Below, in pieces: positions 42,046-64,000 of a stretch of 64,000 nucleotides of DNA. The position numbers and the translations under genes are program-made. This DNA comes from Calycina herbarum (taxonomy: Eukaryota > Ascomycota > Leotiomycetes > Helotiales > Pezizellaceae): NCBI GenBank assembly GCA_001414485.1, contig LLEY01000069.1, positions 248,001 through 312,000 of the forward strand. Reading direction: 5' to 3'. Numbering within the stretch: position 1 is the first letter of the stretch; every line of letters begins with the position of its first letter. The notes beneath the pieces are model-generated. The model did no database searches. It was given only the letters and a program-made list of their open reading frames with translations, and was not told where the DNA came from.

Positions 42046-42460
42046 TAGAATTGCTCTTCTTAAACCTATACATCAGTACTAAGCCCCTCTTTTCTATCTT
42101 AGATAGTTCTTAGTAAGATAGTAGATTAATAATTAGGCTTAATTTTAGGAGAAGTACCTTATAGAGAACAACCTTTAAGTAGTATAGTATAACGAGACAT
42201 AGCTCCTAAAACATATACTACTACTAAAAAGTCTCTGTTCTTAACATCTTACTCTAGCTATTCGCGCTCTACTATTATTAACAATATACCTTTAAATACC
42301 TCTCTTTTACTAGAGTATAGACACTTTAAAGCTAATACTATATTTTCGTTAGTAAAGAACAGCAGCCTCGGAGCACCTCTACCTACTAATAGTTCTTACA
42401 CGTTAGGCTCCTTACTATATATACTTAATTATAATCCGTCTCTATTAGATAAATCTCCTT

Positions 42461-43070
42461 ATATAGATAATAACAGGGTCCCTCGCTAGCTATATTCTCT
42501 AACACCAGAAGCAGAACCGAGTAACAAGCTATATTCTCTGTTATCAGAAGAAGACAAGCCTCTAGTAGAACGGCCTAGCTCTAGACTAACTTCGAGTAAT
42601 CTATATAATCCTCTACATAACCCGTCCAACGACTCCGTAGACTTTAAGAGAGATAACAGCTACTAGTAGAACAATAATAGTATAAAGGATAATAATAATA
42701 AAGGCAGCAGCGATAGAGAAGAAGTCTATAAACCTACAACTATGTCTCCTCCTTATATAGATGATAACAAGGCCCCTTACTAACTATATTCTCTAATATC
42801 AGAAGTAGAACCGAGTAACAGGCTGTATTCTCTGTTACTAGAAGAAGACAGGCCCCTAGTTAAACAGCCTAGCCCTAGACTAACTTTGAGTAATCTATAT
42901 AGTCCTCTACGCAACCTGTCTAACAACTCTACAGACTTCGAGAGAGATAACAGTTACTAGTAGGACAGTAATAGTATAGAGGATAATAATAATAAAGGCA
43001 GCAACGATATAGAAGAAGTCTATAAACCTACAACTATATCTTCTTATAGCAGTCTTAGGAGGACAGGATC
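42461..43070. repeat. Tandem duplication of a ~295-bp unit
   Basis: ATAGATRATAACARGGYCCC starts at about 42461 and again at about 42756. The two units agree throughout apart from mostly transition differences. Each contains an internal GTATATTCTCT-type repeat with an AGAAGYAGAACCGAGTAACA motif. It probably came from a repeat-containing protein, but I cannot read one. Confidence 0.8.
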
Positions 43071-43189
43071 TACCAAGGGTATTAGAAGTAAGGATCGACC
43101 TCTAGTAGATACTCTAACTACTCTCTAATCAACATAGGTACTATTATACTCCTATAGTATAATTCGCCTATTTATCTCTTTCGTATTAG

Positions 43190-46100
43190 GGTTATACCCG
43201 CCCTGTTTTTAGTAGCTACTCTAAACACTTAGTAGATAACTAATATTTAATATAGATCTTCGACTTATAGAAGAAGTAGATAGCTAATACTTGCTATCCT
43301 ATATAATAGAGTATTAGTAAGACATTATTTACCCTTTCTATAATAGCCGGTATAAGTTTTTCCTCTTCGACTTACCTACTATCGCCTTTTAGAACGATAG
43401 TACCTAGGCGTCTTACCCTGTTAATTAGCAGAGCCTCCTCGCTAGCTAAGAATATTATGTCCTAGTTCTTAGCTTTAAGTAGTTAAAATTAGAGGAAGAT
43501 TTATAGGATATTAACATAATCTGCTACTAGGATGTTAATAGCTTCTTAGGCCTAATAAACTCTCTTAGCTAGTACTGACTTAGCTTTAAAATATGTTATT
43601 TACTTACTTTCCTTTAAAATGTTTCTTAGAACAATCGAGTACGTTTTTACAGTTATCGATTATATACTCTTAAACACCTCTTTATAGGCGAGGGTGTTCT
43701 TAGTAGTAGTACTAGATATAAGTGTTATATCTACTTCTTGAATATACTAGTTATAGCAAAGTTAGAAACATACTTAAACCTAGCTATATAATAGATATAG
43801 TTTAATAAGATCGTCCTCCTTATACTTTAGAAAAGCTGCCCTTTTGATATATAAGCATATTATCTGTATTCTTTTAAGAATATTTAAGAGAAAGCTTATA
43901 TGAAAAACGAGACCTTTATCTATAGCTAATAACAACTGATGAGTATTATATATGTGATCTTTAAGGAATACCTCGATTACTTTTAGCAGCTTGTAGTTTC
44001 TAAGGCTAGTAACTACTAGACTAGCGCTAACCTATCTATAAACCTATTTAAAGACCCCTTCCTTATAGTTACTGCTAATAACTTAAAGCTTTTTACTAGG
44101 TATAACACTGTTACTAAGGCTGCTAGTAATTACCTTGCCTACCTCGACTAGTTCTTTTTCTTCGATCTAGACAACCCTTTATAGTAGTGCTAGGTGGATC
44201 TAGTAGCTGAGGACTATCTGAATTCGGATAGGATTACTCTCCTCTATAAGACATTATGTCTTACTACGTAGGCTGATCTCTTTAGTTTAGACAGGGGTAA
44301 GAATAAGTATATATCTTAGTAAACGTATCTATAGTATTTAATATTAGAAGCAGGTAGTTATAGTATTAAGCTACTACCCTCTAATAGCTATTGATAGGAT
44401 AACCTTATAACGTATTATAAGGTATATAATATCTATAAAGAGATCTTTATAACCCTGCTTAAAGGTACTATACTATTTTCCTACTACTAACTAAATAGAT
44501 TAGCTTATAATAAGGCGCTTATTAAAAGGTGGTTTATATTTAATAGGCGCTGTAGGACCCTAAGCCCTCCTAATCTCTAAGCTAAGCTTAAGTTAACCTA
44601 TAAGAGGATTGTAATAAGGCTGTTAGATATTATCTATAACTTACTTTTAAGAAGCTTTAACGTTTAATAAGAGTACTAAGTTAAAATAAAACTCCTACGT
44701 TATATCGCGAATAACACCCTTAAGTAGGTATATTCTCCTTCCTATAGTAATAAAGATTATCTTTATAGACCTACTAGTTTTAGGGATCGAACATCATTAG
44801 CTATAAATAGGAGTAGGTCTTTAGAAGACGACTATAGATAAGCGCGATCTAGCTCTCTATTATCTAAGTTAACTAGAGTTAACTTTATAGCGTTAAAGGC
44901 TAATACTAGGGGCTCTTACTAGTTAACCCCTAGCCTTCGTCGATCCTACTCTTTATTATTATTAGTAGAGTATTACTACCTATTTTAGATTCTCTATACT
45001 TAAGTTATTAATGATTTTATTACTACTTAAACTAATTATTAGCTTCTCCTAATAGATACGATTATTGCTAAGTCGAATATAAGAGTGAATAACTTCCCTA
45101 GCCTTTCTACTAAGATCTAACTATTATATAGTATTATAATAACAACTACGTTATAAGTACTATACTATTTATTTATAAGGGATCCTACGAAAATAAATAG
45201 CCTTTTATTAACTAAGTAGCGTCGTTATATCTATTATAAATTAACTATAATAGATTATAGAGATGATAATTTAAACATTAATATAGATAGTAATAGGAAA
45301 GAAATCAACTAACAAGAAACAGTACTATATACCTTTAGACTTAGGGTTCGCAACATCATAATAGAGCGTAGTACTACGTAGCTCCCCTATAATATTTTTA
45401 TATAGAATACTAGGATCTTATATATAACTCCCGCCTCTGTTAAATAATAGACATTTGCTTAGAGTAGATTTTAAGAATCTTTCTTAAAGAATAGAAATAT
45501 TACTTAGAGTATCGTAGCCTAAGACTAAGCTAGGATACGACTTTTAACCTTACTATAAGGCCGCATCCGATCCAAGTATAATACTACGTGGTATAAAGCT
45601 ATAGATCTAGCTTATTAGATAGTAGTCTATAAGTATATAAAGGTTGTTATTAAGACTCTCGCTAGTTAATAAGATAGCGGATCTACAAGTCTAAATACCC
45701 TTACTAGGGTTACTAAGTTTATCGAATATACTAGGCTTATAGTTGATAAAGCATATAGATTCTATAGTCTTACCTATAGTATAGCGACTAAGATGACTGG
45801 TAGAATCCTATAAATTATATCTATTCACTAGAATATAGCACAGAGCAAGTCTCGTAATAGTAAAAGCGTTCTTACGCCCTTTAACTTAGGTTAATAGATT
45901 GACAGGTTTAGGGCACTATTTTACTTATACCTTAAAGAAACAAGTCAAAAGGTAAGGGGATAGGAGAATATACTATTCCGTTTACTAGCCTACGACTTAT
46001 CTACACTGTTTCTCCGCTACAGCGTCTAGGCCTAGCGGGATTTCGAGACGTCGCTCCTATATATCGCTTTAAGATTACTTCTTATTATACTTCAGTTTAA

Positions 46101-46620
46101 CATTAATAAGCTATTAGTAATATATAAAGCTTCAAAGCACCACGGGCAGACCTTACAGGAATAAATTACAGGTATGTCTAAGTTAGACTAGACGAACTAG
46201 GTAGCCTGTTAAGTCCGAGAGGTAGACTAAGAGGACGTCGAGTAGGCGTAGGACTATATATCTTAACAAGGTCTTAGACCAACATCCTACAAAGATAGAC
46301 AGCGCTTAAATCACGCCTAGTAGAAACTAAGTATAGATTCCCTTCATATGTTAAGGTATAACGACAAGGAACATTTCTTCCCTTAAAGGCACGTCGATCT
46401 TATACTAGCTAAATCTCACCTAGAGCGTGATTCAGTCCTACTAAAAGACTTAAGAGACTTTAAAGATAGAAGAGAAGAATATATTATAAGGTTAGTAGAA
46501 GATAAATCGGAATCAATTTTAGAGTTAGAGACCTTAAAAGACTCGGATTTAGAGTAAGTAATAGAGAAGGATCTATAATTATAAGAGGTATTAAGGCGTC
46601 AGAAGTTTTATTTATATACT
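43190..46620 (+). pseudogene. Relic of a long unrecognised protein (~1,100 codons)
   Basis: One plus-strand frame at a time, with TAA/TAG at Gln/Trp-like positions, gives coherent protein-like sequence. Examples are LFDLPTIAF near 43360, VKIKLLRYIANNTLK near 44680, SRSLEDDY near 44815, RFRALFYLYLKETS.KVRG near 45910, LAYDLSTLFLRYSV near 45990 and LRDFKDRREEYIIRLVEDKS near 46450. I recognise no domain. It carries two of the dispersed palindromes, one inside the frame (44868) and one just after its end (46693), so it belongs to the same element as the helicase relics. Confidence 0.5.
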
Positions 46621-46729
46621 AGATTTTATATACCTCTTATTTAAATAATATAACTTACTTCGACACTATATATAAGCAACCTTAATAGTAGAGCAAGTTA
46701 ACTATAGTTAACTTACTTATTAGAATTAT

Positions 46730-47110
46730 ATCCTAACTTACACGCTATAATCATATTTATTCAAGGGTTATATAATAAACATATATTATATACTTACGCA
46801 CTACTAACTATAGCTAGTCCTTATTTATTCCCTACTATTCTTTATTTTAGTATTAGGAAAGAGTCTTCAAAGTATAGAGAGCTAACATTTATCTACTATA
46901 TCTTAGCTTTAACTATATCTTATTCTAAAGAACTAGATATAGCTAAGTTATTAGATATTAGTACTAAGAGTATACTAACAGAGAAGCAGATTATTAAAGC
47001 ATTTCTTACTAAAGTATTTATAGAATCGATTAAGACTAAAGGCTTACTAAGGTTTAATAAGCTCTTTATAGAAAGAGAAAGAAAATAGAGCTTTACTAAG
47101 ATATTAAACT
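46730..47110 (+). other. Short coding-like relic of unknown origin
   Basis: A low-stop stretch reads ESSKYRELTFIYYILALTIS then YSKELDIAKLLDISTKSIL and IKAFLTKVFIESIKTKG around 46860-47050. The helical character suggests a decayed transposon or nucleic-acid-binding protein. No family recognised. Confidence 0.3.
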
Positions 47111-47499
47111 AGTTTTAGTATCTTATATAGCCTATTAGAATATAATAAAAGTCTTCTAGTCCTTATTCTAAATAAAGACTAGATAGATAGAAGTAATTAT
47201 AAGCTAACTAGGTAGAAGTTCTTTATACTTCTACTTCTAGCTTAGAATTTAATATTTAAAATAGAAATAATATAGTTTTATATTCTTTAATAGCTTTACT
47301 TCTTATAATAATATACTTTTAGTTAGTTAAAGAATTTGTTTCTATTTTATTTTCTTTATTATAAATTCTTAATATAGATTTTATATAAAGTCTTACTAAT
47401 ATTCTAAGGTTTTAGTCTTAACTCTAATAAACTAGTTTATATAAGAAAGAGTACTTAGTTTTACTATTAGAATAAGATAATAAAATAACTTAAGTACTA

Positions 47500-47884
47500 A
47501 CGTAGTTTATTAGCGAGTAGCGTATATCACCAAGTCGTATACTTTTTTTATATATAAAAAACGTCTATATATAACTATATACTTTCTTTATTTATTAATA
47601 TAAAATAGTAAAATTAAAAATTTAGTTTTATTATTATATAAATAAATAGGATTTTAATTTTTAAGAGCTTATTAATTATAATTACTTAGTTATTAAGAAA
47701 ACAAATAAAAAAACATAAATATAAGAGTAATTTTAAGCAAATTAGCTAATAAGCTTAGTAAGCTTTTAAAAATTAAAATCCTATTTATTTATATAATAAT
47801 AAAACTAAATTTTTAATTTTACTATTTTATATATAAAAAAAGTATACAACTCGGTGATATACGCTACTTACTAATAAACTACGT
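47500..47884. mobile_element. Foldback MITE with long terminal inverted repeats and TA target duplication
   Basis: The left end ACGTAGTTTATTAGCGAGTA and the right end, whose reverse complement is ACGTAGTTTATTAGTAAGTA, begin inverted arms of more than 120 bases around a ~90-base centre. TA dinucleotides flank both ends (47498-47499 and 47885-47886), as for Tc1/mariner-type elements. The left arm has ~45 extra bases. No coding capacity. Confidence 0.88.
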
Positions 47885-48059
47885 TATATATAAAACCTAG
47901 TTTATTATATTTAAGTATTTAATAAAAGAAAATCTATATTTACTAGTATAACTAGAAAAACTTAAATCTTTTTAGTCTTTACTTAAATAGCTTAGCTTAT
48001 ATAGAGAATATTATATAGCTTTAGCTAAAGAAGATTATAAAAGTCTAAAATATCTTATA

Positions 48060-49230
48060 TATACTAAGTCTCTAGCTATTCTAGTAGTTAAGTTCGCTTA
48101 TTTTTATCTTTTTTCTTGAAATCCTAGAATATTTATATAGTAGACTTTTATAATATTTATATCTTTAATTAAATATAGTTATAGTATAGTATAATAGACT
48201 CTCTAAAGAAGAAACTAAGCTGATAGCCAGTCTCTAGCTATTCTAGTAGTTAAGTTTACTTATTTTTATCTTTTTTCTTAAAATCCTAGAATATTTATAT
48301 AAGAAACTAACTTAGTTCTTAGAACTTAGATTTTATCTAGAGTTTTAAAGAGTTTATTATATAAGATAGTTACTCGAACCTAGTTAGTAATAGTCTAGTA
48401 ACCTCTATAGATAGCTTATAAGAGTTTATATCTTAGAAATAATATTAATATAAGTTATAGTAACTTTAGCTAGAACTCTCTAAAAGTTGTTTTAAAGAGT
48501 CTACTATATAAGATAGTTACTCGAGCCTAGTTAGTAATAGTCTAGTTATCTCTCTAGCTAGTTTATTAAGCTTTAAAGTTAGATATATACTAGATATACT
48601 ATATATAAGCTATAGTAACTTTAGCTAGAACTCTCTAGAAGGTGTTTTAAAGAGTCTACTATATAAGACAGTTACTTATATAACAGTATAAAACGGATAC
48701 TACTATAAAAGAGGTATATAGAAGTGTATTCAATAGAATGACATATCTAAATACTAGGCTCTAATACGAAGGAAAAGTCTAAATTAGTCTTTTCTTAAGA
48801 GAGAGTAAGAGCATCTATATATAAGAGAGCTAGATAATAATAAAAGTCTATACTAATTCGGTTCTAATAGTTCTAAAACTAAAACTATACTATAATCCTA
48901 TTCTGTATACTTAGTATCTACTGTTCTATAACTATCTATACTATACTATACTTAGCACGTATTTTTAGCCGTTTCTATAGCTCGGCAATTCTATTATTAG
49001 CTAGCTATTATAACTCGAGCCTAGTTAGCAATGGTCTAGTTATCTCTCTAGCTAGTCTATTAAGATTTAAAGTTAGATATATACTAGATATACTATATAT
49101 AAGCTATAGTGACTTTAGCTAGAACTCTCTAGGAGGTGTTTTAAGAAGTCTACTATATAAGATAGCTACTTAAGCCTAGTTAGATATAGTCTAGTAATCT
49201 CTCTAGCTAGTCTCTTAAGCTTAAAAGTTA
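48060..49230. repeat. Interspersed AT-rich repeats (two families)
   Basis: Family 1 (TAGCTATTCTAGTAGTTAAG, followed by TTATCTTTTTTCTT) occurs near 48070 and 48235. Family 2 (CGAGCCTAGTTAGTAATGGTC-like, followed by CTCTAGCTAGT) occurs near 48375, 48510, 49015 and 49170. Family 1 reappears in the array at 51.85-52.7 kb. No coding sequence. Confidence 0.6.
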
Positions 49231-50096
49231 AATATCTAAATTAGTTTTAATATTTTAGTATTTTAAGTTATACCTTAGCTTATATAAAATAAAATAGTTA
49301 GTTTTATTCTTACTATTAGCTTAGAACTTTACCTAAGTTATATTACTACTAATAACCTAGTATTTTAAGAGATTTAGTTTTATACTACTTTATAAGTACT
49401 ATAGGATTAAGAGTTCTTTATATAACGTTTTATACTTTAATCTATATGTTCTTTTAAATAGATGTTATTAAATATTTATATTTATTTTATTAAATTAGTT
49501 TAAATTTATATTATACTATTAAAGAGTAGTATAGATATACTTTTATACTATCTTATAAGTATTATAAGATTATAAGTTATAAACTACTTTAGATAAGGTT
49601 TTATACTATAATTTATATGCTTTTTTAGATAAACTGAACTAAAAATTTATATCTATTTTATTAAATTAGTTTAAAATTAAATTAGTAATTCTTCTTAATT
49701 CTTTTATAAATAACTAGAAAAACTAAAACATATATTAACATGTTAGTCTTAGGAGCTATACCCTAGTTTATATAATATAAAATACTACGTTTTACTAGTA
49801 TTATAATAGTAAAAGTCTAAATAAGTTCTATTACTACTACTAGTCTAGTATAACTAGCTATTTACTTTATAAAATCTAAAAACTACTATAAAACTATGAT
49901 TTCTAAAGTAATTCTAATAATAGTTAGACGATTTTAGATGTTTTTATTAGGTTTTAGAATATAATAGACTATATAAAACAGTTTTAGCTAAACCTTGGCA
50001 GAACTCCGGGACCCGGCGTTACTTATTCCTAGCTTTGCTTATACTGCTATTACTTTTAATTTTATTATATATATTTAAATAATAAAAGTACTATTG

Positions 50097-50204
50097 AGTT
50101 TATAATATATTAATTTATAATAAGTACTTACTTAGGTAATTTATAAATAAGGAAGTACTTACTAAATATTATAAGTATTATTAAGTATTAATATATTATA
50201 AACT
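50097..50204. mobile_element. Small palindromic element, 108 bp
   Basis: Perfect 18-base inverted ends AGTTTATAATATATTAAT / ATTAATATATTATAAACT, with a further internal inverted pair AAGTACTTAC / GGAAGTACTTACT nearby. This fits a very short MITE; a chance AT-rich hairpin is the alternative. Confidence 0.5.
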
Positions 50205-50385
50205 TTTTTTAATAAGATTTTAGTTTATACTACTTCTTTATAATTTAAAACTAGAGAGAGTAGTATAGGTCTACTTTTATACTACTTTATAAGTATTATA
50301 AGATTAAGAGTTAGAAAATACTTTATATAAGGTTTTATACTATAATCTATATACTCTTTTAGATAGACTTAACTAAAAATTTATA

Positions 50386-51518
50386 ATATAATCTATTACT
50401 AAGCTATGTATATTACTAAGCTATATACTTTTACTAACTTCTACTACTTTAAAATATAATAAATCAACTATAATAATAGATAAAACTTATTACTTTTTAG
50501 ATTCTAATAAGCTAGATATATTTATAAGTTCTTAATAAGTTTACGTATTATAACTAGTCTTTCTATAAGTACTATAATATTATATAGTTAAAATCTCTTT
50601 CTTATAATTTACTCTTCTAAAGCGCTTATTATATTATATCTACTTATTTACTTCGTCTTAAGCTATAATATTATATATATCATTTATAGTAAGTATACCT
50701 CCTTAATAGATACGATTCTTTTTAGCTCTATAATACTTAGAAAGTGTCTTATTTACTGCTCGAAGTATACGTAGCTTAGTATTAACAAGAGTTAATTTAT
50801 AAGCTAAATACTCTATACCTTACTATTGTCTATTCTCGATTACCTAGTTAAACTATCTTACTCTTACTATGTCGATTAGTATAAGTAATAACTATTCTAG
50901 GACAGATTTAATCTATTATAAAGCTAGTCTTATTAAAGTTATAGAAATTACTATTTACTATACTATATTTTACTTATATATTCTCTACTAGTTAAAACTA
51001 TATACTAATTAACTTAGGATCTTTATATAAGGCTCTTTAAAAGTCGTAAACGTGATTAAAACATGTCTTTAACTCTAGTTATCGAACTATGAATCGTTCT
51101 ACTTAGCACTTTCTAATACGTTTTACTCTACGTATCTTAAAGAGGTAATTTACTATATCTTCTATATTAACTAGCTAAGGTAAAAACCCTCTAGAATCTT
51201 AATTAAATATATATTAAATAATTATTTCCTTCTCTAATTTTATTAGCTTTAAATAATTAGGTTTAGTATTACTATAAGAAGGTTAGCTATTTATTCTAAG
51301 ATAAAGAGTAGATTTAGGAACTTTATAGATTTTTATAACGTTTTTATAGCTTAATTTTTATTTAGATATTTAAATAGCTTTAATAGCTAATATAATTTAT
51401 ACTTCTTAAGTTTAGACTTATATTATAAAAGAAGAAAATATATATTAAAGTAGTAGAGTAGTAAATTTAGTAAGAGTATATAGCTTAGTAATATACGTAG
51501 CTTAGTAATAGATTATAT
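50386..51518 (-). mobile_element. Pogo/Fot1-type DNA transposon, deleted and RIP-mutated
   Basis: The inverted ends ATATAATCTATTACTAAGC / GCTTAGTAATAGATTATAT contain a doubled TTACTAAGCTATRTA motif. They are flanked by TA (50384-50385 and 51519-51520). The flanks AAAAATTTA and TCTATTTTAT join to the uninterrupted paralog at 52936. On the minus strand the transposase N-terminus reads VIKIYKVPKSTLYLRINS and LEKEIII.YIFN.DSRGFLP (51360-51180). The C-terminus reads LSKYYRAKKNRIY.GGILTI near 50740. The DDE core between them is missing, so the 1.13-kb element is a deletion derivative. Confidence 0.82.
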
Positions 51519-51845
51519 TATCTATTTTATTAAATTAGTTTAGAGTTATATATTCTTACTTAGTAATTCTTTCTAAGTTCTTTCTAAGACTACCTACTTT
51601 TCTAAGTTTAAATATATATATTAGACTTAATACTTAATAAAAACTAGTTTTAATTTTAGATTACTATATTTAATTACTTAAAATACTATAATATCTTAAA
51701 ATATTATAACTTTTAATAAAGTAAAGCCTAATATATAAGATTTTAGTTTTAAGTTTAGATATAATATAGATCTACTTTTATACTACTTTATAAGTACTAT
51801 AAGATTAAGAGTTAGAAACTAGTTTATATAAGGTTTTATATTATA

Positions 51846-52735
51846 AGAAACTAAGTTAATAGCTAGTCTTTAACTAATTTAGTAGTTAAATTCGCTTCTT
51901 TTTATCTTCTTTTCTAAAAATTAAAAACATTTATATAAGGAACTTATATAATACTTAAACGTTAGATTAGATATAGTTAGAGTATAATATAATAGACTAT
52001 CTATAGAATAAACTAAGTTAATAGCTAGTCTCTAACTGATTTAGTAGTTAAGTTTATATATTTTTATCTTCTTTTCTAAAAATTAAAACTATTTATATAA
52101 GAAAGCTCTTATATCTTATAAAGTTAGACTAGATATAGCTACTATATAGTATAAGAGACTATCTAAAGAAGAAACTAAGTTAAAACTAGTTTATAGTATT
52201 TTTAATAACTAAGTTTATTTATTTCTAACTTATTATCTTTAAATTAAAAATATTTATATAAAGCACTTCTATAATACTAAGACCTTAGATTAAATATAGT
52301 TATAGTATAGTAGAATAGATTCTCCTAAGAAGAACCTAAGTTTATAAGTAGTCTCTAGGTAAATTAGTTATTATATTAGTTAATTTATAAATTTTCTTAT
52401 AATAAACTTAGATTCTATATAGAAAACCTATTATATTTTAAGAAGTTATATTTAATATTAAGGTTATTAAATATAAGATACTATTTAAAGAAGAAACTAA
52501 GTATATAGCTAGTTTTTAGGTAAACTAGTAGTAGTAGTTAAATTTACTTATTTTTAAGTTTTTTCTTAAAAACTTTTAACTTTATATAAGAAACTTAGAG
52601 TTATTCTAAGAAAGTAGATTAGATATAAGAATTATAAAGTATAAAATAGTATTTAAAGAAGAAAGTTAGTTAATAGCTAGTTTATAGCTTTTTAAAAAAC
52701 TTAGTTTACTTATTTCTAATCTTTTAAGTTATTTT
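51846..52735. repeat. Six degenerate ~160-bp tandem repeats
   Basis: The landmark GAAACTAAGTTAATAGCTAG (or variants) recurs near 51846, 52011, 52171, 52331, 52492 and 52661, each followed by a YTTATTTTTATCTTYTTTTC-like stretch. Another copy lies at 48210. Confidence 0.75.
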
Positions 52736-52739
52736 CTAC

Positions 52740-53756
52740 TTTATTTATTATAAGTAGCTAAGTCTTATTCTCGACAAGATTTTGCCTTACACCACCTCTC
52801 TATAATCGAAAAATAGAGGGGGTGGTATAGGTCGGTTTTTGCACTACCCTATAAGTACTATAAGATTAAGAGTAAGAAAATACTTTATATAAGCTTTTAT
52901 ACTATAGATTAGACGAACTTTCAAATAGACTTTACTAAAAATTTATATCTATTTTATTTAATTAGTTTAGAGTTACGCTTTCCTGCTTATTAATCGTTCC
53001 TGATGTTTTCCCGAGTCTACCTACTTTCTTAACTTTAACTATATATATTAGATATAATACTTAATAAAAACTAATTTTAACTTAAGATTACTATATTTAA
53101 CTACTAAAAGTACTATAGTATATAATAATATTATAACTTAAGTCTTATTCTTAATAAGGTTTTACTCTATACTACCTTTTTATAAACTAAAAACAGAGAA
53201 AGTAGTATAGATTAGTTTTTACACCACTCTACAAGTACTATAAGATTAAGAGTAAAAAAGTACTTTATATAAGCTTTTATACTATAAATTAGACGAACCT
53301 TTAAATAGACTTTACTAAAGATATATAACTATTTTATTTAATTAGCTAAGTCTTATTCTCTCGAAAAATATAGAAGTAGTATAGGTCGGTTTTTATACTA
53401 CTCTATAAGTACTATAAGATTAAGAGTAAGAAAATGCTTTATATAAGCTTTTATACTATATATTAGGCGATCCTTTAAATAGACTTTACTAAAAATTTAT
53501 ATCTATTTTATTTAATTAGTTTAGAGTTACGCTTTCCTACTTATTAATCGTTCCTAATGTTTTCCCAAGTCTACCTACTTTCTTAACTTTAACTATATAT
53601 ATTAGACATAATACTTAATAAAAACTAATTTTAACTTAAGATTACTATATTTAACTCTTAAAAGTACTATAGTATATAATAATATTATAACTTAAGTATT
53701 ATTCTTATTAAGATTTTACCTTATACTATCTTTTTATAAACTAAAAACAGAGAAAG
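52740..53756. repeat. ~550-bp direct repeat with a partial third copy
   Basis: GTTTAGAGTTACGCTTTCCT occurs at 52969 and 53519, and ACTTAAGT followed by ATTATTCTTA-like sequence at about 53140 and 53691, both about 550 bases apart. A partial third copy lies at 53190-53340. The right copy ends directly at the LTR of the gypsy element (53757). Confidence 0.75.
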
Positions 53757-55686
53757 TGTGACAGTCCCAGTCATATACGACTAGATTACGTGCCGAGGTT
53801 CTACCGAAGTCTCGCTTAGTATATATAAATAGAGACAGAGCGTACTAACTCTCCTCTTCTCTCTTTAGTTTAGTTTTCTTTAAATATAAGTACTATTCTA
53901 TAAGTATCTCTTTTAGTATATTTATAGAGAGCTATTATACTAAAACTAAACTTACACTCTTACTTAGGAAGGTATACGAATATTCTAAAACTAATGAACG
54001 AAAACATATATATTTACCTTATAGCAAATCCCTTTATACACAGTAATAAGTTATAACGCTCCTCTCTTAGCTAGCTTAATAAGTAATTAGACGAAGAGCC
54101 TCTACCTTTACCTTTACCTTTGCTACCTACTATTAATACTAGCTCTCGAAAGACTAAGACCTCTTCCTAAGCTATAGCACTACTACCTCTACCTACTAGT
54201 AAGGCTACTACTAGCTCTTCTACAGTAGCAAAGTCTGAGTTACCTCCTCCTCTTATAGTCGACGATGCCTTATAATAAATCCTTTAGACGATAACCACTC
54301 TCACGGATAAGGTCTACTACCTTAAAGTTAATACTAGATCTACCTCTTAAGTAGTAGAAATGTATATATGCTATAAATACACTCTTATAGAGCTTAAAGC
54401 TGAAAAGGTTGCCTAATCTACTTCTACTACCTAGTCTTCTAAGAAGACTAGTAAAGTAGAGAATCTACGTACGTTTACAATAGAAGACGACTAGATTATA
54501 TATAATACTTAGAAGACTAAAATTATAGTAAAGCTATATATTAATACCGACTACTTTAAATCTAAGGAGGTAAAGATAAATCTAGTATATCGTGCTACTA
54601 CTAGCTAAGTACGTGATTATATTTACCTAAAATATAAGTTCAATGTTAACAACTGATTTACTACTTATAACAAGATACTAGCTTACTTCTATAACATTGT
54701 AGTTAGTCTATATATTCGTAACGAGGCTTATAAGAAGTACTAAGAGCTACAAATAGCTTAAGAGACGTTCTACGAGTTTCGAGCAAAGTTCTAAAAGCTA
54801 GTAGACAAGTCTAGGGCTCTAAAGTAAGACAGAATTAATAACCTTTTTAACAAGTTAACTATTAACCTCTGACAAGCTCTTATAGTTGTTAGACTTCAAG
54901 CTAAGAGAGACATAGACCTCTTTTATACTCTTGCTAGTAGCGTCGACAACGACCTATAAGACATTATAGAAGAAAAGGCTAGAAAGCGTATAAGCAAGTA
55001 TCTACCTACTGTAGCTATAAATATAGCTATAGCTATATGTTCTCTAGAAATTCCTGCTTGCGTAGCTGGCATTTACCCCTCTACTGATATGTGTTATAAC
55101 TGTAGAGAAGTCAGCTATTATATCAAGTCCTGCCTATAGCTAAGAGTTTATAAGAAGGTAGACTTAAGCGAGCTAGAGAAAGAAGAAGAAGCTGGATCTA
55201 AGTTAGGAAACGAATATATCTAAGGGAAGACTCCTTCGTAGGTAAATATAGGATTAATCTCTTTAAGATTAATCTATGGTTATTAGTTAGTAGAAAAGCA
55301 TTTACTTTACCTAGTATAATAATAATTAATAGATATAGTATATAAACTACTGCTCTTAGTAACCTAGGAGTAAATATATTCTCTTTTATAGACGCCTAAT
55401 TCAGCTATAACTTAGCGAAGTTCTATAACCTTAAAATAAAAAGACTTCCTATACTTATAAAGATTCGCGAATATAATAGAGAGATTAGTAGAGAAGCTAC
55501 TTACTACCTCTTCTCTAATTATATATTAGATAGCTATAAATTCTTTAACATACCCTTTATTCTACTAGACCTAGGATTATATAACGTTATCCTTAGCTAA
55601 AAATTCTTTAAATACTTTTATATTAATATCGACGTAACTTATTAAAAGTTACTCTAGCTAGAGGAACTTAAGCCTTACCTTTCTGC
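53757..55686 (+). mobile_element. Gypsy-type retroelement, gag to protease, cut off by telomeric repeats
   Basis: Starts with an LTR-like TGTGACAGTCCCAG. The gag relic follows, with a zinc knuckle at 55089-55130 reading CYNCREVSYYIKSC: the CCHC histidine has become tyrosine, a RIP-type CAC/CAT to TAT change. A protease-like stretch follows (SFIDA near 55385, NVILS near 55585). The sequence stops at 55686, directly before (TTAGGG)3. No reverse transcriptase or integrase region remains. Confidence 0.72.
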
Positions 55687-55707
55687 TTAGGGTTAGGGTT
55701 AGGGTTA
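55687..55707 (+). repeat. Interstitial telomeric tract (TTAGGG)3TTA
   Basis: Perfect TTAGGG repeats in telomere-end orientation join the broken gypsy element to the first Penelope-type flanking repeat. Confidence 0.95.
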
Positions 55708-56380
55708 TCAAATAATAAGTGTAAACACGAGAAGAGGTATGAAAAAACTGATGAGAAGCAAGAATCCTAAAACACTAGGGTATGACCGACAGTGAGTTTT
55801 CGCCTTAAAGGCTTATTAGGGAGTATAGTTTGCTTTATATAAATACCTAACAGCTTGTCGCGCACTGGTCGCGACTAGGCTCCTGGAGTAATCAAAGTGA
55901 GAGGTTGGGGCAGCGGACGCGACGTAATAGCCAAGGCCGCCAGCGTATCCGGGTAACTAAGACTAATATCTCTTCGATTTATCCGAGCCAGTGATTGACA
56001 TATAGAGGCTTTCGCCACCCTATTTCTGTTAGAGTATTATACGATGTCAACTTTTCAGTTAATAACGGGAATCGCCTGAGCTAATAACGGTTCGAATTAA
56101 TCCCACTTAGTATCGTAATAGATACATCAGGATAAGCGCCACCGCGAGGGTGGTAAACGGGCCGAAACCTGACACAAACACCTTTTGCTTATAACGTAGA
56201 CGAAACGTCGGGGCGACATTTATATAGAAACCAGCTCTAGCCCGAAGGCGGAACGTTGGGACCTCTACCAGGTCAACCGACCGAGTAGAGCGAATTCCTC
56301 TAGAGGCAGCCGAAGCATCGAATAGTAACGACGTGTTACAACTATTAGAGTAACCATTCATCCTTAAAAGGATAGCGGTT
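55708..56380 (-). repeat. Flanking repeat C (pLTR-like), copy 2 3' side
   Basis: About 670 bp, homologous along its length to repeats A and B. The hammerhead core is mutated (CTAATAAG on the minus strand). The small frame at 56361..56107 is retained with changes (MNGYSNSCNTSLLFDASAAS). Confidence 0.85.
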
Positions 56381-56395
56381 CGGGTTAGAGTTAGG
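56381..56395 (+). repeat. Degenerate telomeric tract
   Basis: CGGGTTAGAGTTAGG. One G-to-A change separates it from the intact equivalent at 61053-61067. It lies between the RT body and flanking repeat C. Confidence 0.85.
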
Positions 56396-56554
56396 AATAG
56401 GATAGGGTAGTAAGTCTGATCCTATTCAGGTCTAGCATCTCGTGCTATCTATTTCTAACTTTCTATTATATAGTAAGGTGTAGAAGTTCCTTTGAAGTCA
56501 GAGGAGCTCTAAGAACAGGACCTATCAGACGCCCGACTCGTTCGCTTATACGAG

Positions 56555-59500
56555 CTACTTAAGGTATACACCGCTTCGCAGCGGGAGAGACAGAGGGACA
56601 CTAGTAGTGTCGAGCGGCGAGCTCTTAAGGACTGCTTTATTCTAGGCAGACATCTTATTAAAAAGGTTGTCTGTCCTTTTTAGACTTTTAATAATTAGAC
56701 TAGTGAGTAAGGGGGGTAAGGGTTCCCCGCATTTCACCTATTAGTTCATCATTATTTAAAAAACATCTTAGAGATTAGTATATTCCTATATCTCATCGTA
56801 GGAAGAAGGAAGCATAAGTGGATAACCTCGAGCCTCTATATCCTTTCGCTTAGACAAGGTATACAGGCGGTCCTTATACTTCACTTACCTCTTCTATACT
56901 TTAAGAATAGTTGACGGGTATCCACGTCGTCCTAGGGCTAATATAAACTTATCAACTCTCTCTTCAAAGAGTTGTTTAGTAGAGCATATAATCATGTAGC
57001 AGGTTAACTCAGCTTTGATAAAAGCTTTTTTCACCGATTAAGGGTAAGCTAAGGACTAAGGAATATATTAATATTGATTTATACGTTTCTGGAAGACCTT
57101 TGATTATATCTCTACAGGTCTAAAACCATGCTTAAAGAAGAACTCAACGTCTAAGAATAAGGCCGGTTCGCGTATAGAATGAATTTTCTATTTAATCTTA
57201 AATAATTTCAGTCTGTTTGATATAATCGTGAGACAAGATTGAAGGTCTGTTAGAGTTCCTTTAAACACGGAAAAAATATTATTAATATAACATAGGTAAA
57301 GGATCAGACCATTCTTAGACACGACGTTTGCTTTTATAATTAATTCGATAAGTTGTTCTCTAAGTCTTAAAGCAACGTTAGCAAATACTAGGGCATATAA
57401 AGTTCCTATTACGACACCGTTGACTTGATAATAGAATTTTCCGTTGAACTTAAAACAGTTATAGTCTATAACCGTTTCTAGAAGGTCTAGGATTCGGTTA
57501 TAATCTACTCCGTAGCTGCTTCCTAAGCTAGCGAGTAATAAACGTAAATGTTCGATTATATCAGCGGTTAGAATATTAGTATAAAAGGATTCCACGTCCT
57601 CTATAATAATCTAAGTATCGTTTGACCGAGTTATAGTATGTTTTATAAGTTAGGAGATGACTTCCTTAGTTAAATCCACAATCTATAGGAACTCCTTCTT
57701 ATAGAACATTCGAAGAGTAAAATCGCAAACTTCTAAAGCGCGTTTAGTGACCTAAGAGTGACTAGGTACGATTAGACGTAGTTTCTACACTAGTTTATAG
57801 ACTTTAGGGATCGTATAAAACATAGGTATTAACTTGTCTTCCTTAGACGTAAGCAGGTATTTAGAGGTTTCAGATGAAAAGGTTCTATCTTTAGCGAGAA
57901 AACATATACGTTCGAGCGCTTCGTGTTAGTAATATTCTATAATGTTAGCAAGTAATATCTTATCGTATATGGTTTCATCTAGTAACATTGAGTTACACTA
58001 CTCTAGATACTAGGATTTCGAGATTGCTGCCACGCCGAGGTTCTTATTAGTGATCTTTAGCAAGAGTTTACTCGATTATAAGAAGTCTTTAATAGATCTT
58101 ATGTCTAGATTAGACATATGACGATTAAGAGAGGGTAGGGCCGCTGTTTTAGAGAATAGTAAGTCTATTCCCTCTTAAAAGCCTTTCTCGATCTAAAAGT
58201 TCCTTTGTTCAGCTGGTAGTGTCTACGACTTTTTAGGTACGTAGAATTTCGATTATATATAATCAGAGTTACGGAAGTACCATCTGAGACAGACGCTTCT
58301 TTTAAGGAGTGGCCACGCTTAATAAACTCGAAGGGGATTCAGAGGATAATATAGGATAAATTTAGAATTTAAAGCTAATTTATATTTAATAATTTAAGGT
58401 ATAACTACGCTAGGTCCTTTAAAGATACCGTCTACGAACCTATGACCAGGTTCAAACAGCTGTATAGGAGTATGTGACGATATAAACTATAATATTCCAG
58501 AGTTGGAAATTCTATAGAACAGTTCCAAATAAAGTTCAAGCATTTATATAGCTATATCTATGTTATATAGGGTACGGTCTAAACGTCGAATTGTTGTCAA
58601 GGGGACAGACTTAGTATATACGTCCTACCTGTTCCCCGAAGGTACTAGCGCCGATCCGGAAACCATGCCTCTTAAAACCCTTTCTAACTTTTCAACTTAC
58701 CTTAAGTCTTCTTCCCGCCTTTCCCTTTTCCTTTTCCCGTGCCGGCTTTAGTAACCTTCGCAGTCTACGGTTTAGGTTTCCCTTTCAGGGTAGGTTTGGC
58801 TTTTTTAGTCTATCGACCGTTTCCGTTTCCTAGGAATGTCAGTGTTAGCTTCTTTAGTCTGCTGAGCAGGTTTAGAGAAAGTTATACCAGGTTTAGTTAT
58901 TTTATACTCTTTAATAAGTACATCCAGTTTTCGGCTAACTAGAGCATCAACAGTTTCGGTTTTTGAAGACGTGTCTTACATTTCGACGTCTTTATCTGCC
59001 TTACGTTTAAGAGACAGAGACTTGAATTTCTTCGTAGTCTCTGCCTATACTGCTATGTATGCCAGGGTAATAGCTCTTTATAGGAACCGTTCCTTAGTTA
59101 CACCGTAGGTATCGACGTCTACTTTAATCCACGGTGGCAATCCTACGAGATTGGGTTTGCCATCGGCAAGTGCTGATTCCACACCTGCGTCGCTGGCTAA
59201 AGCAGTGATCATATCATGGCCGATTTCGACCAAATCCTCCTTATATTTGCTTTCAGTAAACAGGGACTGGAGGTATGCGGCCTCCGCTCGTTTCGTAGAA
59301 ATGGCGGATTCTAACATAGCCACTTTGTATACTCGAGTCGCGGTGTCACGAGCTGCCGAAAGCTCTTTTGACTCGGCAGAGGCTATGAACTCTTTCGAGA
59401 TTTAGAGGGAGGGAGGGTTGATACGTCTACCGATTTCAGGGGGGAACGTATTGTCTTAGTAGTGCTTTTCGAGAGTGGACAGGTAAGAACGAGCATGGTT

Positions 59501-59671
59501 TGACTTGATTACTGCTCTATATACCGCGTTTATAAGGTGTTGTATTCGTAGGCGGAAAACTACAGGCACCAATTCGAGAAGTTCGCTAAGGGAGCCTGCT
59601 TTAGAAATGGAGGTTTAGAGACTAACATTATCTACTAGGACCTAGCGGAAAGACATAATAGAGTTCGGCAT
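56555..59671 (-). pseudogene. Penelope-like reverse transcriptase, RIP-inactivated
   Basis: The homologous frame runs from ATG 59671 to TAG 56555-56557, exactly 1,039 codons, with no net insertion or deletion relative to the intact copy. At least four early stops are visible in the N-terminal 90 codons (TAG or TAA at Gln/Trp positions). The catalytic YIDD has become YINN (LCYINNIFSVFKG) and DVESFYTN has become VESFYTNIL. All are C-to-T or G-to-A changes. The start lies only 19 bases from the telomeric tract at 59690. It also shows that the intact copy should begin about 116 codons beyond the first codon visible in this window. Confidence 0.88.
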
Positions 59672-59689
59672 GTTTTTTCGTATTCGAGA

Positions 59690-59700
59690 GGTTAGGGTTA
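59690..59700 (+). repeat. Telomeric tract inside copy 2
   Basis: GGTTAGGGTTA between flanking repeat B and the 5' end of the RT body. Confidence 0.85.
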
Positions 59701-60367
59701 TCAAATAATAAGTATGAACACGAGAAGAGGTATGAAAAAACTGATAAGAAGCAAGAATCCTAAAACACTAGGGTATAACCGACAGTGAGTTTTCGCCTTG
59801 AAGGCTTATTAGAGAGTGTAGTTTGTTTTGTATAAATACCTAACAGCTTGTCGCACACTGGTCGCGACTGGGCTCCTAGAGTAATCAAAGTAAGGGGTTG
59901 GGGCAGCGGACGCGACGTAACAGCTAAGGCCGCCAGCGTATCCGGGTAACTAAGACCAACATCTCTTCGATTTATCTAAGCTAGTGATTGACATGTGGAG
60001 GCTTTCGCCACCCCATTTCTGTTGGAGTATCGTACGATGTCAACTTTTCAGTTGATAACAGGAATCGCCTAAGCTAATGACGGTTCGAATTAATCCTACT
60101 TAGTATCGTAATAGATGTATCAGGATGAGCGCCACCGCGAGGGTGGTAAACGGGCCGAAACCTGACACAAACACCTTTTGCTCGTGACGTAGACGAAACG
60201 TCGGGGCGACATTTACATAGAAACCAGCTCCAGCCCGAAGGCGGAACGTTGGGACCTCTACCAGGTCAACCGACCGAGTAGAGCGAATTCCTCCAGAGGC
60301 AGCCGAAGCATCGAACAGTAACGACGTGTTACGACCATTAGAGTGACCATTCATCCTCGAAAGGATA
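59701..60367 (-). repeat. Flanking repeat B (pLTR-like), copy 2 5' side
   Basis: About 667 bp, much less mutated than repeat C. It contains the 84-codon frame 60354..60100. The hammerhead core is disrupted (CTAATAAG). Its outer end, GGATA, abuts GGGTTAGGG directly. Confidence 0.88.
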
Positions 60368-60379
60368 GGGTTAGGGTTA
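60368..60379 (+). repeat. Telomeric tract separating the two Penelope-like copies
   Basis: GGGTTAGGGTTA, exactly between the distal end of copy 2 and the 3' end of copy 1. Confidence 0.93.
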
Positions 60380-60443
60380 TCAAGTAATGAGTGTGAACAC
60401 GAGAAGAGGTATGAAAAAACTGATGAGAAGCAAGAATCCTAAA

Positions 60444-60500
60444 ACACTGGGGTATGACCGACAGTGAGTTTTCGCCTTGAAGGCTCATCAGGGAGTGTAG
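60444..60500 (-). ncRNA. Hammerhead-ribozyme-like motif
   Basis: On the minus strand CTGATGAG (60491..60484) is followed by stem II GCC-TTCAA-GGC, then GAAA (60473..60470) and, after a 10-base stem-loop III region, GTC (60462..60460) as the cleavage triplet. Stem I can form from CC with GG right at the core and from ACACT with AGTGT further out, leaving a 9-base internal loop on the 3' side, as natural type I hammerheads often have. The weak point is stem III: only A-U and C-G pairs fit, and an extra A follows GAAA. Penelope-like pLTRs are known to carry hammerheads. Repeats B and C have the core mutated. Confidence 0.6.
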
Positions 60501-60718
60501 TTTGCTTTGTATAAATACCCAACAGCTTGTCGCGCACTGGTCGCGACTGGGCTCCCGGAGTAATCAAAGTGAGGGGTTGGGGCAGCGGACGCGACGTGAC
60601 AGCCAAGGCTGCCAGCGCATCCGGGTAATTGAGACCAACATCTCTTCGATTTATCCGAGCCAGTGATCGACATGTGGAGGCTTTCGCCACCCCATTTCTG
60701 TTGGAGTATCGTACGATG

Positions 60719-61033
60719 TCAACTTTTCAGTTGATAACGGGAATCGCCCGAGCCAATGACGGTTCGAATTAATCCCACTTGGTATCGTAATGGATGCATC
60801 AGGATGAGTGCCACCGCGAGGGTGGTAAACGGGCCGAAACCCGACACAAACACCTTTTGCTCGTGACGCAGACGAAACGTCGGGGCGACATTTGCATGGA
60901 AACCAGCTCCAGCCCGAAGGCGGAACGTTGGGACCTCTACCAGGTCAACCGACCGAGTAGAGCGAATTCCTCCAGAGGCAGCCGAAGCACCGAACAGTAA
61001 CGACGTGTTACGACCATTAGAGTGACCATTCAT
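60719..61033 (-). CDS. Small frame conserved in the flanking repeats, unknown
   Basis: The same frame occurs three times: 61033..60719 (104 codons), 60354..60100 and 56361..56107 (84 codons each). It starts MNGHSNGRNTSLLFGASAAS and contains VPTFRLRAGAGF and APTFRLRHEQKVFVSGFGP, with PTFRLR repeated, then a hydrophobic stretch TTLAVALILMH. The copies differ mainly at the ends. Conservation may reflect the DNA repeat rather than a protein, and no family is recognised. Confidence 0.3.
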   Translation of the reverse strand: MNGHSNGRNTSLLFGASAASGGIRSTRSVDLVEVPTFRLRAGAGFHANVAPTFRLRHEQKVFVSGFGPFTTLAVALILMHPLRYQVGLIRTVIGSGDSRYQLKS

Positions 61034-61052
61034 CCCCGGAGGGATAGCGGTT

Positions 61053-61067
61053 CGGGTTAGGGTTAGG
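61053..61067 (+). repeat. Telomeric tract inside copy 1
   Basis: CGGGTTAGGGTTAGG between the RT body 3' end and flanking repeat A. It is the same junction as at 56381-56395. Confidence 0.93.
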
Positions 61068-61226
61068 AATAGGATGGGGTAGTAAGTCTGATCCTATTCA
61101 GGTCTGGCATCTCGTGCCATCCATTTCTAACTTTCCATTGTACAGTGAGGTGTGGAAGTTCCTTTGAAGTCAGAGGAGTTCTAAGGACAGGACCCATCAG
61201 ACGCCCGACTCGTTCGCCCACGCGAG

Positions 61227-64000
61227 CTACTTGAGGTGTGCACCGCTTCGCAGCGGGAGGGACAGAGGGACACTGGTGGCGTCGAGCGGCGAACTCTTGA
61301 GGACTGCTTTATTCCAGGCAGACATCTTATCGAAAAGGTTGTCTGTCCTTTTCAGACTTTTGATGATTGGACCCGTGAGTGAGGGGGGTAAGGGTTCCCC
61401 GCATTTCACCCATTGGTTCATCATTGTTTGAAAAACATCTCGGAGATCAGTATATTCCCATATCTCGTCGTAGGAAGAAGGAAGCATGAGTGGATGACCT
61501 CGAGCCTCTGTATCCTTTCGCTTGGACAAGGTATACAGGCGGTCCTCATACTTCACTTGCCTCTTCCATACTTTGAGAATGGTTGACGGGTATCCACGTC
61601 GTCCTAGGGCTAACATGAACTCATCAACTCTCTCTTCAAAGAGTTGTTTCGTAGAGCATATGATCATGTAGCGGGTCAACTCAGCTTTGATAAAAGCTTT
61701 TTTCACCGATTGAGGGTGAGCTGAGGACCAAGGAATATATTGATGTTGATTCATGCGTTTCCGGAAGACCTTTGATTGTATCCCCACAGGTCCAAAACCA
61801 TGCTCAAAGAAGAACTCAACGTCCAAAAATGAGGCCGGTTCACGCGTAGAATGAATTTTCCATTCAATCTTAAATGGTTTCAGTCCGTTTGATATGATCG
61901 CGAGACAAGATTGAAGGTCTGTTAGAGTTCCTTTAAACACGGAAAAAATATCGTCAATGTAACGTAGGTAAAGGATCAGACCATCCTTAGACACGACATT
62001 TGCTTTCGCAATTGATTCGATGAGTTGTTCTCTAAGTCCCAAGGCAACGTTGGCAAATGCTGGGGCACATGAAGTTCCCATTGCGACACCGTTGACTTGA
62101 TGGTAGAATTTTCCGTTGAACTCAAAACAGTTGCAGTCCATAACCGTTTCCAGAAGGTCTGGGATTCGGTCATGATCTACTCCGTGGCTGCTTCCTAAGC
62201 CAGCGAGCAATGAACGTAAGTGTTCGATTGTATCGGCGGTCGGAACATTGGTATAAAAGGATTCCACGTCCCCTGTGATAATCCAAGTATCGTTCGACCG
62301 AGTCACGGTGTGTTTCATAAGTTGGGAGATGACTTCCTTGGTTGAATCCACAATCCATGGGAACTCCTTCTTATGGAACATTCGAAGAGTAAAATCGCAA
62401 ACTTCTGAAGCGCGTTTGGTGACCCAAGAGTGACTAGGTACGATTGGACGTAGTCTCCACACTGGTTTATGGACTTTGGGAATCGCATGAAACACAGGTA
62501 TTGACTTGTCTTCCTCAGACGCGAGCAGGTATTCAGAGGTTTCAGATGAAAAGGTTCCATCTTTAGCGAGAAAACATATGCGTTCGAGCGCTTCGTGTTG
62601 GTAATATTCTGTGATGTCAGCAAGTGATATCTCATCGTATGTGGTTTCATCCAGCAACATTGAGTTACACTGCTCCAGATACCAGGATTTCGAAATTGCC
62701 GCCACGCCGAGGTTCTTATCAGTGATCTTCAGCAAGAGTTCGCTCGATTGCAAGAAGTCTTTGATGGATCTTATGTCTGGATTAGACATATGACGATCAA
62801 GAGAGGGTAGGGCCGCTGTTTTGGAGAACAGTAAGTCCATTCCCTCCTGAAGGCCTTTCTCGATCCAAAAGTTCCTTTGTTCAGCTGGTGGTGTCCACGA
62901 CTTTTTGGGTACGTAGAATTTCGACTGTACACGATCAGAGTTACGGAAGTGCCATCTGAGACGGACGCTTCTTTCAAGGAGTGGCCACGCTTGATGAACT
63001 CGAAGGGGATTCGGAGGATGATGTAGGATAAATTTAGAATTTAAAGCCAATTTATATTCAATATTTTGAGGTATAACTACGCCAGGTCCTTTAAAGATAC
63101 CGTCTGCGAACCTATGACCAGGTTCAAACAGCTGTACAGGAGTGTGTGACGATACAAACTGTAACATTCCAGAGTTGGAAATTCCACAGAACAGTTCCGA
63201 ATGAAGTTCAAGCATTTGTGTAGCCGTATCTGTATTGCACAGGGTACGGTCTGAACGTCGAATTGTTGTCAAGGGGACAGACTTAGTATACACGTCCTGC
63301 CTGTTCCCCGAAGGTACTAGCGCCGATCCGGAAACCATGCCTCTCAAAACCCTTTCTAACTTTTCGACTTGCCTTGAGTCTTCTTCCCGCCTTTCCCTTT
63401 TCCTTTTCCCGTGCCGGCTTTGGTGACCTTCGCAGTCTGCGGTTTGGGTTTCCCTTTCGGGGTGGGTTTGGCTTTTTTGGTCTGTCGACCGTTTCCGTTT
63501 CCTAGGAGTGTCAGTGTTGGCTTCTTCAGTCTGCTGAGCAGGTTTGGAGAAAGTCATACCAGGTTTGGTTATTTTATACTCTTTAATGAGTGCATCCAGT
63601 TTTCGGCTGACTAGAGCATCAACAGTTTCGGTTTTTGAAGACGCGTCTTGCATTTCGACGTCTTCATCTGCCTTGCGTTTGAGAGACAGCGACTTGAATT
63701 TCTTCGTAGTCTCTGCCTGTACTGCCATGTATGCCAGGGCAATGGCTCTTTGTGGGAACCGTTCCTTGGTCACACCATAAGTATCGACGTCTGCTTTGAT
63801 CCACGGTGGCAATCCTGCGAGATTGGGTTTGCCATCGGCAAGTGCTGCTTCCACACCTGCGTCACTGGCCAAAGCAGTGATCACATCTTGGCCGATTTCG
63901 ACCAAATCCTCCTTGTACTTGCTTTCAGCAAACAGGGACTGGAGGTATGCGACCTCCGCTCGTTTCGTGGAAATGGCGGATTCTAACATGGCCACTTTGT
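61227..64000 (-). CDS. Penelope-like reverse transcriptase, no endonuclease domain (5' end outside window)
   Basis: Open from the window edge to TAG at 61227-61229: 922 residues visible, about 1,038 expected by comparison with copy 2. The first visible codon in the long frame is GTG and is not the start. An N-terminal region with two basic clusters (PRKRKRS and GKRKRERREE, near visible residues 165-205) could be nuclear localisation signals. The RT core shows IPKVHKPVWRLRPIVPS (near 504), GDVESFYTNVP with the catalytic Asp at about 576, VNGVAMGTSCAPAFANVAL (near 636) and RYIDDIFSVFKG with Asp 681-682. The thumb-like segment is KVFRKRMNQHQYIPWSSAHP. About 150 residues follow without GIY, YIG or a zinc finger. 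Endonuclease-deficient Penelope-like elements attach to telomere ends instead of cutting a target. Confidence 0.92.
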   Translation of the reverse strand, partial: KVAMLESAISTKRAEVAYLQSLFAESKYKEDLVEIGQDVITALASDAGVEAALADGKPNLAGLPPWIKADVDTYGVTKERFPQRAIALAYMAVQAETTKKFKSLSLKRKADEDVEMQDASSKTETVDALVSRKLDALIKEYKITKPGMTFSKPAQQTEEANTDTPRKRKRSTDQKSQTHPERETQTADCEGHQSRHGKRKRERREEDSRQVEKLERVLRGMVSGSALVPSGNRQDVYTKSVPLTTIRRSDRTLCNTDTATQMLELHSELFCGISNSGMLQFVSSHTPVQLFEPGHRFADGIFKGPGVVIPQNIEYKLALNSKFILHHPPNPLRVHQAWPLLERSVRLRWHFRNSDRVQSKFYVPKKSWTPPAEQRNFWIEKGLQEGMDLLFSKTAALPSLDRHMSNPDIRSIKDFLQSSELLLKITDKNLGVAAISKSWYLEQCNSMLLDETTYDEISLADITEYYQHEALERICFLAKDGTFSSETSEYLLASEEDKSIPVFHAIPKVHKPVWRLRPIVPSHSWVTKRASEVCDFTLRMFHKKEFPWIVDSTKEVISQLMKHTVTRSNDTWIITGDVESFYTNVPTADTIEHLRSLLAGLGSSHGVDHDRIPDLLETVMDCNCFEFNGKFYHQVNGVAMGTSCAPAFANVALGLREQLIESIAKANVVSKDGLILYLRYIDDIFSVFKGTLTDLQSCLAIISNGLKPFKIEWKIHSTREPASFLDVEFFFEHGFGPVGIQSKVFRKRMNQHQYIPWSSAHPQSVKKAFIKAELTRYMIICSTKQLFEERVDEFMLALGRRGYPSTILKVWKRQVKYEDRLYTLSKRKDTEARGHPLMLPSSYDEIWEYTDLRDVFQTMMNQWVKCGEPLPPSLTGPIIKSLKRTDNLFDKMSAWNKAVLKSSPLDATSVPLSLPLRSGAHLK

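Follow-up and report, generated by a model that had tools for sequence, protein, structure and literature searches.

How would a retroelement that appears to lack an endonuclease come to stand in successive copies at the end of a fungal contig? This question is raised by a 64,000-nucleotide (nt) stretch of the Calycina herbarum genome (the window; C346:248001-312000 of an assembly of 68.8 Mb in 379 contigs, with C346 ending at 312,488), in which an earlier note, made from the letters alone, had described an intact endonuclease-less Penelope-like element (PLE) that attaches to chromosome ends. We found that copies of a 3,993-bp retroelement, with their sense on the minus strand, follow one another head to tail over the last 8.8 kb of the window, and that this array of a likely endonuclease-less PLE was most probably built by reverse transcription at an exposed chromosome end.

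Anatomy of the array and order of its layers

In the sense direction (minus strand, right to left), one unit consists of the open reading frame (ORF) of a reverse transcriptase (RT), a tract CCTAACCCTAACCCGAACC, and a 3' part of about 0.68 kb, called R, which ends in TAACCCTAA. Read from the left, the array comprises a cut-off high-copy retroelement, three TTAGGG repeats, R1 with the inner ORF, TTAGGG, R2, TTAGGG, R3 with the intact (outer) ORF, TTAGGG, and the start of R4 (Table 1). Two units of 3,993 bp are complete and share an identical 5' junction, one (R2) is R only, and R4 is partial, the contig ending within it, 488 bp past the window. That the 3' ends point away from the chromosome end presupposes that the contig end is distal. 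The RIP-damaged second copy (RIP, repeat-induced point mutation) and the two further R units, just left of the intact copy's 3' end at 60371, go beyond the earlier note. The TTAGGG tracts that it had placed on the 3' side are present, but the one at 61049-61068 turned out to be internal, the 3' end of the copy lying 0.69 kb further left.

Telomeric repeats were found at all four array junctions in C346, in numbers that vary from junction to junction, and in degenerate form at one junction in C273, a contig carrying a relic of the element. In a scan for 12-mers of TTAGGG with at most 1 mismatch, the 5 matches compare with a mean of 0.51 in shuffled sequences, and 0 of 100 shuffles reached 5.

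The layers of the array differ in their load of RIP. The inner and outer ORF bodies differ at 316 positions, 297 of them C>T or G>A, and the sites changed in the inner body were 237 of 451 CpA, 9 of 415 CpT, 11 of 376 CpC, and 40 of 328 CpG. Compared with R3, RIP-type changes accounted for 54 of the 57 differences of R1, 36 of the 39 of R2, and 103 of the 107 of the C273 relic. The TpA/ApT ratio was 0.64 for the outer body, in agreement with the claim that this copy is free of RIP damage, and 0.70 for R3, versus 1.47 for the inner body and 1.31 to 1.91 for the other copies; the 127 bp of R4 that are present match R3 at 100%. Since R1, the inner ORF, and R2 carry the RIP changes, whereas TpA/ApT is low in R3 and the outer body, the former likely passed through a RIP-active cycle and the latter likely came later. 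The outer unit was not copied from the RIP-mutated inner one, and no second intact copy that could have been its source was found in the assembly; the unassembled distal part could be the home of one.

These features bear on two other ways of building the array. PLE units could have multiplied through tandem duplication, or telomeric tracts could have undergone unequal exchange, perhaps at an internal site, as would fit two full units of equal length with identical 5' junctions and a contig that ends in a repeat. We consider this improbable, as R2 is truncated at a 5' point of its own and carries a separate telomeric cap, the junctions differ in repeat number, the left flank is cut at TTAG, and the outer unit does not reproduce the mutated one. 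Alternatively, R could be a separate telomere-associated repeat flanked by telomeric sequence, with the ORF part representing a shorter element attached to it; R2 does stand alone, with no ORF attached, and TTAGGG occurs in the tract that links R to the ORF part. The junction of R with the ORF part is, however, common to R1, R3, and the C273 copy (R 85% identical) save for RIP-type changes, which fits one transcription unit and makes a separate R quite unlikely.

The left flank is informative about the target, in line with reverse transcription onto an exposed end. The retroelement there has 40 scored genomic places, the one in the window included. All 11 of the 39 other copies that were compared continue past the junction, 88.7 to 94.9% identical to each other, versus 37 to 41% identity between them and the window. 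In the window the retroelement ends at TTAG, which merges into the three TTAGGG repeats; CTTAG is present at that point in 4 of the 11 copies. A break or an eroded end would leave just such a cut-off retroelement, its TTAG then being extended with telomeric repeats or priming directly.

Table 1. Features at the right-hand end of the window (window positions)
Feature	Position	Strand	Basis
Right-hand piece of RIP-mutated high-copy retroelement, cut off at ...CTGCTTAG	54200..55690	+	comparison with other genomic copies
Three TTAGGG repeats + TTA, joining cut-off retroelement to array	55687..55707	+	12-mer scan, sequence
R1, 3' part of inner copy, RIP-mutated	55699..56376	-	R comparison
TTCGGG/TTAGGG-like tract inside inner copy	56377..56396	+	sequence
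Inner ORF body, RIP-mutated, 17 TAG and 21 TAA in frame	56397..59689	-	comparison with outer body
GGTTAGGGTTA junction, inner body 5' end to R2	59690..59700	+	sequence
R2, R unit without ORF, RIP-mutated, 5'-truncated at GGATAG	59692..60364	-	R comparison
Telomeric-repeat junction ATAGGGTTAGGGTTA, R2 5' end to R3	60365..60379	+	12-mer scan, sequence
R3, 3' part of intact copy, no RIP mutation	60371..61048	-	R comparison
Hammerhead-ribozyme-like motif (CUGAUGA, stem II, GAAA), candidate cut after A at 60440	60437..60494	-	prediction
Internal GGTTCGGGTTAGGGTTAGG tract, ORF side to R3	61049..61068	+	12-mer scan, sequence
Intact RT ORF, running 343 bp past the window to a conserved Met (contig 312,343)	61227..64000	-	frame and relatives

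Within the element, a TTCGGG variant repeat lies beside TTAGGG at 56377-56388 and 61049-61060. The telomere-attached MoTeR retrotransposons of Magnaporthe are also associated with TTCGGG variant repeats. R3 contains a 104-amino-acid (aa) sense-strand frame (60719-61033). To the left of the array, a 162-bp repeat array lies at 51845-52368 in a RIP-mutated stretch, and positions 36000-55700, AT-rich towards the array, hold no stop-to-stop frame of at least 150 aa.

The reverse transcriptase and its relatives

The RT core recognized earlier (DVESFYTN, AMGTSCAP, YIDD) is present on the minus strand, the orientation expected for attachment to a chromosome end, in a frame that occupies 61227-63998, is open to the window edge, and is still open at contig position 312,481. 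Counted from the Met that is conserved in the relatives (MPNSI), the outer ORF has 1,038 codons, and it keeps 211 of 213 family-invariant residues. Pfam reported RVT_1 (E 4.4e-8) and nothing else on the intact protein; GIY-YIG was found neither there nor in the domain annotation precomputed for the listed relatives (47 and 120), as expected from the earlier description of an intact frame without this endonuclease. The intact protein does not correspond to a canonical PLE with GIY-YIG, and the element is likely an endonuclease-less PLE. The only GIY-YIG match reported in the assembly, C199:2032-2166 (L045), is weak and has an internal stop, on a contig without a PLE match. The domains PF26215 and PF28514 are listed for most relatives; the Pfam run reported neither (PF26215 is absent there), and they were not used as evidence.

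The predicted structure of the RT resembles telomerase: the first 14 rows of the second structure list are all telomerases, a result that concerns the telomerase side only, as no named PLE took part in the direct comparison. A PDB sequence search with the single protein gave no match, and a profile search of PDB found neither telomerases nor PLEs, its sole match being a bacterial defence RT (E 2.4e-5). At least 28 relatives at 48 to 71% identity were obtained in the protein search and at least 47, fragments and distant rows among them, in the profile search, all three protein searches having scored only the approximately 8,000 candidates with the most shared words. A relative from the ascomycete Diaporthe eres was 47% identical. 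In a quick, midpoint-rooted tree of 61 rows (the window protein and 60 of 165 fetched proteins, with the shorter rows and most of P0050-P0165 left out, and without named Coprina, Athena, or TERT rows), the window protein fell into a 34-row clade (SH-aLRT 100) that includes the D. eres protein. The only other tree row with an organism name bears the label Candidatus Pacebacteria; P0145, a PLE-like RT under this label in a public record, may be a eukaryotic sequence that was placed in a bacterial bin. A filamentous ascomycete host, as presumed earlier, is supported by RIP at CpA, by the D. eres protein in the same clade, and by at least 150 HET domains in the assembly, many such domains being a mark of filamentous ascomycetes.

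The RT could also be a cellular or domesticated gene of the rvt type that lies near a telomere by chance, to which its few copies and intact frame would correspond. The repeated units with telomeric 3' ends, the RIP-damaged sister copy, the 5'-truncated relic, and the telomerase-like predicted fold all speak for a PLE instead, and we disfavor a cellular gene as hardly credible.

Some of the relatives may be organized alike. Of the 26 relatives with 1,000 aa or more, 20 lie on contigs of 3,653 to 4,339 bp, near one unit length, which is no more than suggestive. P0012 and P0021, whose ORFs extend upstream, translate the hammerhead-like stretch (MSLQGE...LSV) in the corresponding position, some 100 nt ahead of the peptide NPN, which is encodable by AACCCTAAC; P0010 has LTLT, encodable by TTAACCCTAACC. 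Judged from these protein letters, the three elements are probably also arranged head to tail. The relatives' DNA was not found in one viral-contig scan, one genome-contig scan, or the plasmid records, so that tandem arrays in the relatives are read from proteins only.

A hammerhead-like motif in the 3' part

Read in the sense direction, R3 contains, 69 nt ahead of its 3' end and the telomeric repeats there, the motif CUGAUGA-GCC(UUCAA)GGC-GAAA. It has a UUA triplet, a stem I of 3 bp, and a stem III in which 7 of 9 pairs are in register. R4 is identical to R3 there, and in R1, R2, and the C273 copy RIP turned the core CUGAUGA into CUAAUAA. A descriptor composed after the motif had been seen matched in R3 and R4. 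It also matched in 7 of 1000 shuffled arrays, and 100 shuffled versions of the 64.5-kb sequence gave 7 matches. Cleavage could also take place at another triplet, GUC, which begins 11 nt after the G of GAA and is indistinguishable from the first.

Rfam and folding results count against a ribozyme: Rfam scored Hammerhead_3 on 192 bases at 14.5 bits versus a cut-off of 48.5 (E 1.7), and the minimum-energy fold of 72 nt has -13.7 versus -7.1 kcal/mol for the hammerhead. On 4.5 kb, Rfam gave no hammerhead at E up to 5, and it found no confident RNA in the element. In a 151-nt fold, CUGAUGAG pairs with the downstream CUCAUCAG (z -0.89; 41 of 200 shuffles as stable). We give a working ribozyme about an even chance. 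A hammerhead in a fungal PLE was not reported in the titles and abstract openings found in the literature; we do not claim priority.

Priming at chromosome ends and comparison with known elements

Both ORF bodies found in the assembly (2 of 2) stand at one contig end. The only further trace, in C273 (20,001 bp), is an R unit 85% identical plus 71 bp of the body query, 2.4 kb from the contig start. Directly to its left, positions 1-2374 of C273 (L020) contain a helicase piece (Helicase_C, E 1.4e-11) and subtelomere-like repeats; since these repeats recur at 46820-52727 of the window, the relic site and the array both look subtelomeric.

In the proposed mechanism, element RNA with CCCUAA at its 3' end would pair with the G-rich strand (TTAGGG) at a chromosome end or a break, and the RT would take that 3'-OH as primer and copy the RNA. 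As the RT would prime from an exposed 3'-OH, an endonuclease would not be needed. Copies that stopped early, such as R2, would be re-capped with TTAGGG, the following round would attach another unit outward, and the R of the outer neighbor would become the upstream region for the next ORF inward.

Several observations weigh against this mechanism. The contig stops inside R4 and not in a telomere, so that the chromosome end is not seen, and no telomere was found at the other end of C346. In the Foldseek list, telomerase comes first, but group II-type, retron, and spliceosomal RT folds are intermixed, with TM-scores of at most 0.3 by query length. The identical 5' junction of both ORF bodies is also expected from tandem duplication. 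The C273 relic is 5'-truncated after 71 bp, followed by unrelated sequence with no TTAGGG cap, and about 16.9 kb of C273 lie beyond it, on the side expected to hold the chromosome end. Plain TTAGGG arrays end 10 of the 10 other telomeric contig ends fetched (contigs among 100 of 247 listed telomeric places), and the genome encodes a telomerase RNA-binding domain (two stretches on C371); the element is thus not the usual end-maintenance system.

The occurrence in an ascomycete, which the earlier note had taken to be new, is not: a telomeric endonuclease-less PLE in an ascomycete is already known, because a telomere-localized family (family 4) of putative endonuclease-less PLEs was described in 2014 in Mycosphaerella graminicola (Zymoseptoria tritici) (PMC4522978). 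That family resembles ours in its ascomycete host, in being described without endonuclease, in one to three TTAGGG at a 3' end that points away from the telomere, in truncated copies in tandem with full-length ones, and in RecQ-type helicase genes in the subtelomeres (PMC4522978). It differs in number, with 34 full-length copies on 26 of 41 ends versus two ORF copies found here, and in size, 3.4 to 3.5 kb versus 3,993 bp (PMC4522978). Penelope-like elements have also been placed at chromosome ends in the basidiomycete Agaricus (PMC7473861), and Penelope elements are mentioned for Macrophomina phaseolina (PMC6829926).

In Athena and the other PLEs that lack the endonuclease, priming apparently starts from 3' ends exposed at telomeres or breaks, and their truncated 5' ends gain telomeric repeats (PMC3846280). 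Our element is like Athena in lacking the endonuclease and in the R2 truncation capped by telomeric repeats; protist and fungal endonuclease-deficient PLEs are described without the canonical direct or inverted-repeat organization of PLEs, whereas here full units stand head to tail (PMC3846280). The Terminons of bdelloid rotifers expose telomeric repeats next to a 3' hammerhead and share with our element tandem arrays, 5' ends truncated by telomeric repeats, and a hammerhead motif (in our element a predicted one) close to the 3' end, ahead of telomeric repeats in reverse complement (PMC6431247). Terminons, however, are giant, in contrast to one RT ORF in a 3,993-bp unit, and their hammerhead is immediately upstream of the repeats, in contrast to the predicted one here, 69 nt away (PMC6431247). 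The anatomy fits end priming (PMC3846280) well and the Terminon hammerhead (PMC6431247) in part, with an element that is putatively active.

A further, tentative possibility is that this is a compact fungal Terminon-like element, active, whose hammerhead-trimmed RNA would offer CCCUAA to a broken or eroded end and cap it before telomerase does, building head-to-tail arrays in which each outer copy would supply the control region of the next inner one and RIP would date the layers.

The present member of the telomeric PLEs of ascomycetes is well preserved and unusually readable. The newer points are that RIP marks the order of addition, that the cut-off target can be read, and that the 3' part contains a putative hammerhead-like motif. 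PLEs share ancestry with telomerase, and those without an endonuclease offer a living model of how a selfish element lengthens chromosome ends. Here, intact, older damaged, and truncated capped copies lie side by side with the cut-off target, their layers time-stamped by RIP, which makes the proposed end-priming mechanism testable. If the hammerhead-like motif cleaves, it would tie the fungal element to the rotifer Terminons.
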